DNA of 37,843 nt, from assembly GCA_035544955.1 (NCBI GenBank), contig DASZZN010000031.1:1-37843 (forward strand), read 5' to 3'. Source of the DNA: Candidatus Dormiibacterota bacterium. Lineage in GTDB: Bacteria > Chloroflexota > Dormibacteria > CF-121. This document shows positions 26,728 through 29,803 of the stretch, one piece after another. Within the stretch, counting starts at the first letter, position 1. Every line of letters begins with the position of its first letter. A program made the translations under genes and the position numbers. The notes under the pieces are model-generated. The model was not told the DNA's origin. It searched no databases and saw only the letters and a program-made list of their open reading frames with translations.

Positions 26728-26767
26728 GATTCCCTCCCCCTCTGGGGAGGGTCAGGGTGAGGGTGAG
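26728..26767 (+). repeat. hairpin plus GGGTGA-repeat element (REP-like)
   Basis: A perfect 8-bp stem (CCCTCCCC, loop CTCT, GGGGAGGG; 26728-26747) is followed by TCAGGGTGAGGGTGAGTT. It resembles dispersed intergenic repeats seen in many GC-rich genomes, and could also weakly end transcription after the diguanylate cyclase gene. Only one copy is present in this window, so the repeat status is inferred. Confidence 0.5.
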
Positions 26768-26854
26768 TTCACCCGCGATGCCTCCTGAGGGCGTCTTAAG
26801 CATTGGACGGCCAGAACGCCGCCCAATTCATAGGACTTATAGGAGGAAACCGTA

Positions 26855-27610
26855 ATGTTCTCGATAACCCGACCGATCGTCCGATTGACAGCCGGCGCGC
26901 TCGCGCTGGCGGCAGGCGCCGTAACGTTCACGGGCGCGCTGCCGGCATCCGCCGATAGCCTCGGCCCATTCACCTGTACCGACTGGTCCGGGGGCGTTGC
27001 CGGCACCGCCGCCACGGTGAGCTCTGTGCGCATCGCCCACCACAACGGCTATGACCGCCTGGTCATCGGGTTCGCAACCTCCAACGCGATGCCGCAATAT
27101 CAACTCACGCAGCAGGCGACGTCGAACTTCGTTCGCGACGCGAGCGGCCAACCCGTCACCCTCGCCGGCTCCGCCGGCATCCGCGCCATCCTTCGGAATG
27201 CCGACATCACCTCGGGCGCCCCGACTGACCTGAAGCCCGGGTTGCCAGCGATCCGTGAAGTGGCGCAGATCGGCAACTTCGAGCGCGTAGTGAGTTATGG
27301 CGTCGGGCTGGCGACGCCCGCGTGTTTCCGTGTTCTCGAGCTCAGCGGGCCGACTCGCCTGGTGATCGACGTCCAGACTGCGGCGGACGCTCCCGCTGCA
27401 ACCGTGGCGCCGTCAACCTCGGCGCCATCAATCGCGGCGCTGTCAACGCCGGCTGGCCAGCCGGCCACCCCCTCCGATCTCGCCGCGACCGGCCACCCGT
27501 CCCAGCCGGCGCAACCGTCGACGTTCCCGTTTGGCGTCCTGATCCTGGGACTGCTCGCCGTCATCGCCGGGTTGACCATTACCGGCATCAGGCGATTCGC
27601 GAAGAAATGA
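26855..27610 (+). CDS. secreted AMIN-like domain protein with LAATG-type C-terminal sorting signal
   Basis: This 251-residue protein starts at an ATG with AGGAGG 8 nt upstream. Residues 1-33 form a signal peptide (cleavage after ASA). Residues ~38-172 form one AMIN-like domain with CxDxSGG, YDR and a late Cys (ACFRV). A Pro/Ala/Thr/Ser linker follows. The C-terminus has LAATG, a 14-residue spacer, a hydrophobic segment (VLILGLLAVIAGLTITG) and the basic tail RRFAKK, the layout of a sortase signal of the class E LAxTG type. If no sortase exists it would simply be membrane-anchored. It lies just upstream of the sigma factor and shares its domain with the next-but-one gene. Confidence 0.8.
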   Translation: MFSITRPIVRLTAGALALAAGAVTFTGALPASADSLGPFTCTDWSGGVAGTAATVSSVRIAHHNGYDRLVIGFATSNAMPQYQLTQQATSNFVRDASGQPVTLAGSAGIRAILRNADITSGAPTDLKPGLPAIREVAQIGNFERVVSYGVGLATPACFRVLELSGPTRLVIDVQTAADAPAATVAPSTSAPSIAALSTPAGQPATPSDLAATGHPSQPAQPSTFPFGVLILGLLAVIAGLTITGIRRFAKK

Positions 27611-27650
27611 CTCACCCGTCCACGGCACTCGCAGCGTCGTTAGGATTGGC

Positions 27651-28187
27651 ATGCTCATGGATCCTGCGCTCGGGCGCGTCATTGCCCGGTGGCGAGAAGG
27701 CGATCGCGATGCCTTCGAGGAGGTCGTGGATCGCTACGGCCTCCAACTCTTGCGCACCGCTCGTTTGATCTTGCGTGATGAGGCTCTCGCCGAGGATGCC
27801 ATCCAGGACACGTTTCTCAAGGCCTGGCAGCGGATCGGCAGTTTGCGCGACGAAGACCCGGGACCCTGGCTCACAAAAATCGCCATGAATGAGAGCATCT
27901 CGACGTACAGGCGGCGCCATCGCTTCCAGGCGCTCACCGAACGCTTCGGCCGCCTCGGCGGTGGCAAGCCGGAGGTCTCGAGCGAAGCGCGGCTGGACCT
28001 CGCGCACGCGCTCGACAAGCTGACCGCGGAGCAACGTGCCGCGGTCGCGCTCCACTACTACCAGGACCTCAGCGTTGAAGAGACCGCGCGAGCCCTGAAA
28101 GTCCCGGTGGACACGATGAAATCGCGGCTGAAGACGGCGCTCCGTCGGCTCCGCGAGCTGACGGGTGGCGAGGAGGCGTTCGCATGA
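27651..28187 (+). CDS. ECF-family RNA polymerase sigma factor
   Basis: The 178-residue protein has sigma region 2 (residues ~10-80, with AFEEVVDRYG, AEDAIQDTFLKAWQ and STYRRRHRF) and region 4 (residues ~115-170, with LTAEQRAAVALHYYQDLSVEETARALKVP). There is no region 3, as expected for the ECF group. A TAGGAT box at 27641-27646 lies so near the first ATG that the second ATG (27657) may be the true start. The stop overlaps the next ATG (ATGA). This is the classic sigma/anti-sigma arrangement and implies that the downstream membrane protein controls this factor. Confidence 0.93.
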   Translation: MLMDPALGRVIARWREGDRDAFEEVVDRYGLQLLRTARLILRDEALAEDAIQDTFLKAWQRIGSLRDEDPGPWLTKIAMNESISTYRRRHRFQALTERFGRLGGGKPEVSSEARLDLAHALDKLTAEQRAAVALHYYQDLSVEETARALKVPVDTMKSRLKTALRRLRELTGGEEAFA

Positions 28188-29371
28188 GCGACGACTTCGA
28201 GAAGAACCTCCGCGATCACTTGCATCGCGAGGCCGAGGAGACCCGCGAGTTCCCGCGTCGCTTGCGCGGCCGGATCCGCGACGGCATTGCCCCCCGCGCC
28301 CGCGTGCGAATGGTGCCGCAGCTCGCCTTGGCCGGCGCCCTCGTCCTCGTCGCGGTCGCTGTCCTGGCGTTTCGAAATCCGACGATCATCAACGTCGTCA
28401 CGACTGGCATCAAGGGAATCATCGAGCCGAGCCCAACGCCCACTCCGCAACCGTTTCTCTGCCAGGACCAATCTGGAGGGTCGAGCGGAGTGACTGCGAC
28501 CCTAACGAATATACGGCCGGGCTCCCACGCGGGCGATGGCTACGACCGAGTCGTTTTCGACTTCAACGGCGGTATTCCCTCCTGGGACCTCACGCGACAG
28601 CAGTCGGCGGCGTTCACGCGCGACGCCAGCGGGCAACCGGTCACACTGGACGGAAGCGCCGGCCTCAAGCTCGTGTTCCGCGGGGCGGACGTCGCCGGCG
28701 GAGTCGCCAGCGATTTGACGCCACGATATACATCGATTCGCGAAGTTGCCCAGTTGGGGAACTTCGAGCACCAACTGACCTACGGCATCGGTCTGTCATC
28801 GTCGCAATGCGTTCGCGTGCTGCAGCTGAGCAGCTCGCGGCTGGTGGTCGACGTCGCCACCACAGGTTCAGCCTCGACGACGGCCGCCCCGACACCACTG
28901 CCGACGCAACCGGCGGCGACGGATTCGGGCTCGTTCGCTTGCCTCGATCACAGCGGCGGAGCTGATACCGGGCCGGCGATGCAACTGACCGCCGTGCGCG
29001 TCGCCCATCAGACCGGCTTCGACCGGATCGTCTTCGAATTCGCACCCCAGGCCGGCGCAACCGCGCACATTCCCGCCTACACGGTGTCGCGGCAGGCGTC
29101 GGCGAAGTTCGTCAAAGATCCGAGCGGTCTGCCGGTGACGATGCGCGGGTCAGCAGGTCTCCGCATCGTCTTCCATGGCGCAAGCGGTGCATCGAGCTAC
29201 AACGGCAGTCGCGACCAGATCTCCAACCTTCCCGTCATCCAGGAGGTCGAGCAACTCGGCGACTTCGAGGCGGTCCTGAGCTGGGGCGCCGGTCTATCGC
29301 GAGCCTCCTGCATTCGCACCCTCGAGCTCAATAATCCCACCCGGCTCGTAATCGACGTCCAGACGCCCTGA
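28184..29371 (+). CDS. membrane protein with tandem AMIN-like domains, candidate anti-sigma factor
   Basis: The 395-residue protein has ~42 charged helical residues (MSDDFEKNLRDHLHREAEE and on), one transmembrane helix (residues ~45-63), a Pro/Thr linker, and two AMIN-like domains (residues ~90-225 and ~250-394). Each domain shows CxDxSGG, a D-R motif after Gly-Tyr/Phe, and a second Cys near its end (QCVRV, SCIRT), so each may hold one disulfide. The short cytoplasmic part lacks the HxxxCxxC motif of zinc anti-sigma domains. Overlap with the sigma gene and the topology suggest a non-canonical anti-sigma factor that senses a wall ligand or the AMIN protein at 26855. Direct evidence is absent. 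Confidence 0.75.
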   Translation: MSDDFEKNLRDHLHREAEETREFPRRLRGRIRDGIAPRARVRMVPQLALAGALVLVAVAVLAFRNPTIINVVTTGIKGIIEPSPTPTPQPFLCQDQSGGSSGVTATLTNIRPGSHAGDGYDRVVFDFNGGIPSWDLTRQQSAAFTRDASGQPVTLDGSAGLKLVFRGADVAGGVASDLTPRYTSIREVAQLGNFEHQLTYGIGLSSSQCVRVLQLSSSRLVVDVATTGSASTTAAPTPLPTQPAATDSGSFACLDHSGGADTGPAMQLTAVRVAHQTGFDRIVFEFAPQAGATAHIPAYTVSRQASAKFVKDPSGLPVTMRGSAGLRIVFHGASGASSYNGSRDQISNLPVIQEVEQLGDFEAVLSWGAGLSRASCIRTLELNNPTRLVIDVQTP

Positions 29372-29413
29372 CCGCTTCCTGGAACCTTTACCCGATTCCC
29401 GCGTCTTAGTCCT

Positions 29414-29803
29414 GTGGGTCCGCCGTCACGACGAATCCTGATCGGGAGTACCGGGCTCCTCTTGCTCCTGATCGCCGGCGTGCTTGCCCTGCTCCTGATG
29501 TCTCGACCTGAGGCAGCTCCCAGTGGGCCGCCGTCGATCCGCGGGACCATCACGAGTCTGACTCCCGTTGCGGGCCAGGGCGTCATCCTCGTCGAGGAGC
29601 GCCCGCAGGACCAGGCCGGCTCTAACAAGGCGAGCGTCACCGTCAACGCGGCGACACGCATCTATCGTGGCCGGGTGAGCGCCTCGACGACAGGGTCATT
29701 CGGTGACCTGCGAAATGGGCAGCAAGTCGAGGTGTGGTTCGACGGGCCGGTGCTCACCTCGTATCCAGTCCAGGCGACCGCAAGCGTGATCGTTATCCCC
29801 TAG
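29414..29803 (+). CDS. DUF3221-like membrane-anchored protein
   Basis: The 129-residue protein has an N-terminal transmembrane or uncleaved signal segment (ILIGSTGLLLLLIAGVLALL, residues ~8-27). A small beta domain follows, with IRGTITSLTP, ILVEE, and the C-terminal block SFGDLRNGQQVEVWFDGPV, then SYPVQATASVIVI. That block fits the DUF3221 (YobA-like) family of secreted proteins of unknown function. No lipobox cysteine is seen. The start is GTG 29414, 42 nt after the AMIN-like membrane protein and on the same strand, so it is probably in the same unit. It converges on the MBL gene with 23 nt between them. Confidence 0.7.
   Translation: MGPPSRRILIGSTGLLLLLIAGVLALLLMSRPEAAPSGPPSIRGTITSLTPVAGQGVILVEERPQDQAGSNKASVTVNAATRIYRGRVSASTTGSFGDLRNGQQVEVWFDGPVLTSYPVQATASVIVIP

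Follow-up and report, generated by a model that had tools for sequence, protein, structure and literature searches.

Introduction

In Thermoanaerobacter tengcongensis, the ECF sigma factor Tt-RpoE1 is encoded just upstream of Tt-TolB, a single-pass protein with a transmembrane (TM) segment at residues 39-61. Residues 1-39 of Tt-TolB bind the ECF, Tt-TolB inhibits it, and Tt-RpoE1 has an autoregulated promoter of the form tGTTAC-N16-CGTC (PMC3397946). Class II anti-sigma domains, such as that of CnrY, embrace sigma2 and sigma4 (PMC4598750, PMC7406223, PMC8103513). RsiV and RsiW, the partners of SigV and SigW, are single-pass anti-sigma factors whose extracytoplasmic part controls release, and a comparable arrangement is proposed below; RsiV responds to lysozyme, and the anti-sigma domain of RsiW is of class I, whereas the stub in question here has 42 residues. 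To our knowledge, neither RsiV nor RsiW carries AMIN domains. In AmiC and PilQ, peptidoglycan at the septum or the poles is bound by the AMIN domains (PMC10653833).

The window analysed here, a stretch of 37,843 nucleotides, is a contig of the 3.67-Mb genome of a soil Chloroflexota bacterium. As in T. tengcongensis, an ECF sigma gene is followed by the gene of a single-pass protein with a short stub, and the predicted promoter sites have a 16-nt spacer and a CGTC -10 element. However, the -35 element is TCACCCG in the window and tGTTAC in the Tt-RpoE1 system, and the outer domain is AMIN-like in the window while that of Tt-TolB is TolB-type. Furthermore, the window has a free paralogue of the sensor domain, and the passages considered here on the T. 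tengcongensis system name no such paralogue as a target (PMC3397946). Our literature search found neither a paper describing an anti-sigma factor with an AMIN sensor nor one on the domain family PF24837. We consider it likely that the locus encodes an ECF sigma/anti-sigma pair that regulates its own expression and has an AMIN-like extracytoplasmic sensor, and that AMIN surface proteins are its targets.

Genes and domains of the locus

A sequence-only reading had placed three AMIN-like domains in two genes, one on either side of the gene for an ECF sigma factor, and all three were recovered with Pfam. The free AMIN-like gene (26855..27610, + strand) has one PF24837 domain (E 4e-24). The sigma gene (27651..28187, + strand) encodes a product of 178 aa with regions 2 and 4 of sigma-70 only (Sigma70_r2, 9e-14; Sigma70_r4_2, 6.5e-13), as in ECF (group 4) sigma factors, and SigL, CnrH and SigW are among the solved ECFs closest to it. 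The membrane AMIN gene (28184..29371, + strand), which encodes the predicted anti-sigma factor, has two PF24837 domains (E 1.1e-47), and its ATG shares the sequence ATGA with the stop codon of the sigma gene, an overlap that had been noticed before. The membrane protein consists of the stub (residues 1-42), a TM helix at about 46-64 (starting at about 41) and AMIN-like domains at about 91-228 and 251-395.

PF24837 scored 85.5 and 161.7 bits in the two proteins, above the curated Pfam cut-off of 27, while the classical AMIN family PF11741 reached 16.9 and 13.2 bits, below its cut-off of 20.5 in both proteins. Thus, AMIN-like is the correct label by sequence; the modelled fold does match that of AMIN domains.

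A DUF3221-like gene further downstream, also named in the sequence-only reading, was confirmed at 29414-29803 (Pfam, 2.4e-8). Among the loci examined it stands at this place in the window genome only and was absent from every related one, and we rejected it as a component of the system. For a GC-rich inverted repeat near 26730, a search with a possibly too strict pattern yielded no further copies of the kind expected of a dispersed element.

Conservation of the gene pair

PF24837 was sought in 101 genomes (that of the window and 100 relatives) and in 400 genomes across the phylum, and the surroundings of the matches were fetched. Three families are named below: f1, to which the window belongs; f3, from the same class; and f11, from a different class. 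An ECF gene followed by a stub of about 40 aa, a TM helix and an AMIN-like part was present in 40 genomes (13 of f1, 26 of f3 and one of f11); eleven of the f1 cases, one fusion included, belong to the genus of the window and two to other genera. One f3-like match was left uncounted since it may be contamination (the genome has 8% contamination). The pairing recurs in 39 genomes other than that of the window and is therefore not due to chance, and the conserved pairing looked for on the basis of the first reading was found in two families and in one member of another class. The two genes usually overlap by 4 nt in f1 and mostly abut or lie 1 nt apart in f3. Within the genus the genes always stand in the order free AMIN, ECF, membrane AMIN; three f3 loci (L090, L112 and L219) share this order.

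Two loci depart from the common arrangement. In L063 (3184-4103), the ECF and the membrane AMIN protein are fused in frame, and both the stop codon of the sigma gene and the first eight residues of the stub are missing; this fusion, which we counted in favour of a sigma/anti-sigma pairing, may be real or an assembly error. In L188 (3020-4389), of f11, the ECF gene is followed by that of a TM protein whose stub is of another type (LPDHVYDEVRTEIEHTGQR) and which matches PF24837 at 6e-27, and here an AMIN sensor was possibly joined to an ECF regulator independently.

Predicted promoter sites and targets

Alignment of both upstream regions across the genus revealed two conserved blocks, TCACCCG and GCGTC, which precede the free AMIN gene and, as the same pair, the sigma gene. 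In the window they form TCACCCG-N16-CGTC at 26769..26795 (+ strand), 59 nt before the ATG of the free AMIN gene, and at 27612..27638 (+ strand), 12 nt before the sigma ATG. Both are predicted ECF promoters, and with them the -35/-10 type motif expected upstream of 26855 and 27651 was indeed present at both places. The exact motif was found at the free AMIN gene in 11 of the 12 f1 loci having such a gene and at the sigma gene in 12 of 13. It occurs four times in the 3.67-Mb genome, twice at the locus and twice inside ORFs. Throughout the genus, copies outside long coding frames precede only the sigma gene, the free AMIN gene or an extra AMIN lipoprotein gene, the others lying within long ORFs; the extra lipoprotein genes, in three relatives (L059, L064 and L066), have the motif 15 nt before the ATG. 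The f3 family has its own motif, TGCAACC-N15-GCATC, which most loci carry 11-16 nt ahead of the ATG of the sigma gene; it also precedes the free AMIN gene in three AMIN-ECF-AMIN operons, and it was counted once or twice per genome in the 11 f3 genomes searched.

With the motifs of the genus that lie outside long coding frames standing before sigma and AMIN genes only, and with a site of its own before the sigma gene in f3, the system looks autoregulated. Judging from these sites, the sigma factor very likely drives its own operon and the AMIN genes, the AMIN proteins being its regulon. Since the site lies only 12 nt from the ATG, the sigma mRNA would be nearly leaderless. The strict motif search of the genome disclosed no wider regulon, the remaining matches being inside ORFs; degenerate targets would be missed by such a motif, and a wider regulon is therefore possible.

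In another f1 genus, an orphan gene with the stub-TM-AMIN layout (L074:3052-3786) has no neighbouring ECF gene and carries TCACCCG-N16-CGTC 11 nt before its ATG. Its product could act in feedback, as a second inhibitor of the same sigma factor.

The free AMIN protein of the window has a signal peptide, PF24837 at about residues 54-174, an LAATG motif, a C-terminal TM segment and a basic tail. It ends in LAATG-spacer-TM-RRFAKK, a C-terminus that the genus conserves: the free AMIN proteins there end in LAxTG-TM-RRFARK. The LAATG tail resembles the class E sorting signal, LAXTG, of class E sortase substrates (PMC5148588). The genome encodes four sortases, two of which have class E as their best model with scores below the cut-off. 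Since it carries an LAxTG motif, a hydrophobic segment and a basic tail, and since sortases are encoded in the same genome, the protein has the features of a class E sortase substrate and is probably anchored to the wall. It is best seen as a product, that is, a predicted target, of the sigma factor. Of the three roles once offered for it (competitor, ligand carrier or regulon member), the shared promoter site speaks for the last. In the proposed mechanism, the freed sigma factor would transcribe its own operon and AMIN-like surface proteins, namely the LAxTG-type anchored protein at 26855 in the window genome and AMIN lipoproteins in some relatives.

The stub and the sigma factor

The stub (28184..28309, + strand), predicted to be a short anti-sigma domain, was modelled in the window membrane protein as a helix at 3-19, a loop and a helix at 25-34 ahead of the TM segment (AlphaFold2). 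With fewer than 50 residues and two modelled helices beside a TM segment, it agrees in size and topology with class II (CnrY-like) domains. It does not resemble a class I domain (ASDI), which has about 100 residues and four helices. CnrH/CnrY and NepR of class II likewise have a two-helix domain of less than 50 residues, and the sigma factors in 4cxf and 5uxx have a closed conformation that the sigma factor modelled for an f3 relative appears to share. However, CnrY has no detectable sequence similarity to the stub, and CnrY uses a separate periplasmic metal sensor (CnrX), whereas the window has its sensor in the same chain as the stub. Comparison of the stub with solved structures gave only insignificant colicin matches, with no CnrY chain among the matches to E 10. 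The missing sequence match to CnrY is weak evidence because the classes of anti-sigma domains have little sequence in common, about 3% in the case of RseA/CnrY (PMC7406223).

A joined model of sigma factor and stub was obtained from an f3 relative (L134), in which the two genes are in frame and were read through one TAA stop; its alignment has few paired rows and some misplaced ones, and the model stands for the f3 relative, not for the window pair. Two alternative alignments (A5 and A7) were dropped, as MAFFT had put short fragments into the sigma part. In the L134 model, with its few paired rows, the stub reached a pLDDT of 90-94, compared with about 80 falling to about 50 in the window protein alone; the two cases differ in protein and in alignment, and the comparison is only a hint. 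By Foldseek, the sigma part of the L134 model matched SigW-RsiW with a TMt of 0.77-0.78, CnrH-CnrY with 0.75 and RpoE-NepR with 0.67-0.68, against 0.33-0.41 for RNAP-bound or RseA-bound sigma factors. In this model the sigma factor thus appears to take the closed form that sigma factors have in complex with CnrY, NepR and RsiW. The prediction for sigma factor plus stub called for by the sequence-only reading therefore gave an ordered stub, for an f3 relative in place of the window pair.

The divergence of the proteins was compared in 23 f3 pairs. Stub distances correlated with those of the sigma factor at 0.72 and with those of the AMIN domain in the same chain at 0.39; the partial correlation of stub and sigma given AMIN was 0.66, a value reached by none of 2000 permutations.

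These results bear on another explanation, namely that the membrane AMIN protein is a co-transcribed surface product and not an anti-sigma factor, its stub being a mere membrane-insertion tail. The stub indeed lacks sequence similarity to known anti-sigma domains, and the other regulon members are surface AMIN proteins without a stub. However, the stub is kept across two families and its divergence follows that of sigma more closely than that of the AMIN domain, it appears ordered when modelled together with the sigma factor, and the layout matches that of Tt-TolB, whose residues 1-39 bind the ECF (PMC3397946). Moreover, AMIN-like proteins without an ECF gene are nearly all plain lipoproteins with no stub. 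We regard a plain surface product as improbable. From the models, the divergence that tracks sigma and the Tt-TolB precedent we infer that the stub of 42 residues probably is an anti-sigma domain, and contact between stub and sigma factor is likewise supported by models and precedent. The earlier claim that the membrane protein holds the sigma factor through residues 1-42 is upheld to that extent: two predicted helices, order beside the sigma factor, a sigma factor modelled close to the closed form, divergence and Tt-TolB all point the same way. As an anti-sigma factor, the membrane protein would keep the sigma factor inactive at the membrane through the two-helix stub, either by a wrap-around of the CnrY/NepR kind or in the Tt-TolB manner.

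On the ligand, the trigger and the mode of release, be it a change of shape or proteolysis, we can only infer. Release by regulated proteolysis in the style of RsiW/RseA, as opposed to a direct conformational change in the style of CnrYX, would be compatible with the anti-sigma explanation. A single-pass topology suits site-1/site-2 cleavage, and SigW-RsiW is the closest conformational match of the model; however, the 42-aa length of the stub is CnrY-like and not that of class I. We give proteolysis slightly less than an even chance.

The outer domains and the signal

The modelled outer domains have the AMIN beta-sandwich fold, with matches in Foldseek to AmiC (4bin, probability 1.00) and PilQ (3jc8, E 2.5e-4). 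The fold is thus common to AmiC, PilQ and the window; however, the AMIN domains of AmiC and PilQ belong to PF11741 and are attached to an amidase or a secretin, whereas those of the window belong to PF24837 and are attached to an anti-sigma-like stub. No demonstrated ligand of PF24837 was found in the literature. By analogy of fold, wall sensing is the likeliest input of the AMIN-like sensor: the one or two outer AMIN-like domains would respond to the state of the envelope, most likely to cell-wall glycan or peptidoglycan. The conserved promoter makes the targets predictable, so that a promoter-reporter assay can be used to probe the ligand of AMIN-like domains.

A redox signal was considered as well, in which the two conserved cysteines within each AMIN-like domain (C93/C209 and C253/C376) would sense oxidation and free the sigma factor. 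All three domains of the window have such a pair, and for domain 1 it does not vary among the sequences aligned. However, 143 of 170 AMIN-like domains have a cysteine on both sides, and many of these are lipoproteins without a link to an ECF gene. As most AMIN-like domains share the pair, it is more probably a structural disulfide than a redox switch, and we judged redox sensing very unlikely.

What we find most interesting is that the sensor and its detectable targets belong to one domain family. A wall-sensing system of this kind might form a homeostatic circuit, which we put forward tentatively: the AMIN part of the anti-sigma factor would monitor free AMIN-binding sites of the wall, and the sigma factor would make wall- or lipid-anchored AMIN proteins that occupy these sites, compete for the same ligand and so switch the signal off.

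Related gene pairs and other AMIN-like genes

The same genome contains about ten more ECF genes that are followed by a stub of about 40-50 residues, one TM segment and an outer domain (L223-L231). Their outer domains are NHL, BNR/YCF48-type propellers, PD40, PQQ-like or unassigned, and their stubs are only weakly similar to the AMIN stubs. With its AMIN sensor, the pair is therefore one version of a modular design and not a new class of system. The earlier suggestion of a new system holds for the AMIN-like sensor on an ECF pair; for the design itself (ECF, short stub, TM, variable sensor) it was overstated, because this design is known from Tt-TolB and common in this genome. The pair adds a cell-wall-type domain to the sensors on ECF anti-sigma factors and gives PF24837 a regulatory context. 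One plan, an ECF with a very short anti-sigma-like stub, a TM segment and an exchangeable sensor, is reused many times in one genome.

AMIN lipoprotein genes were also seen in other surroundings. In an f11 genome (L186:1421-3386, genome G136), one begins directly after a long ECF-type sigma gene (more than 400 aa). In f3, a separate AMIN lipoprotein gene adjoins a tRNA-Leu(CAA) gene on the opposite strand in 9 of the 10 loci tested (L084, L088, L091, L093, L106, L113, L119, L126 and L133).
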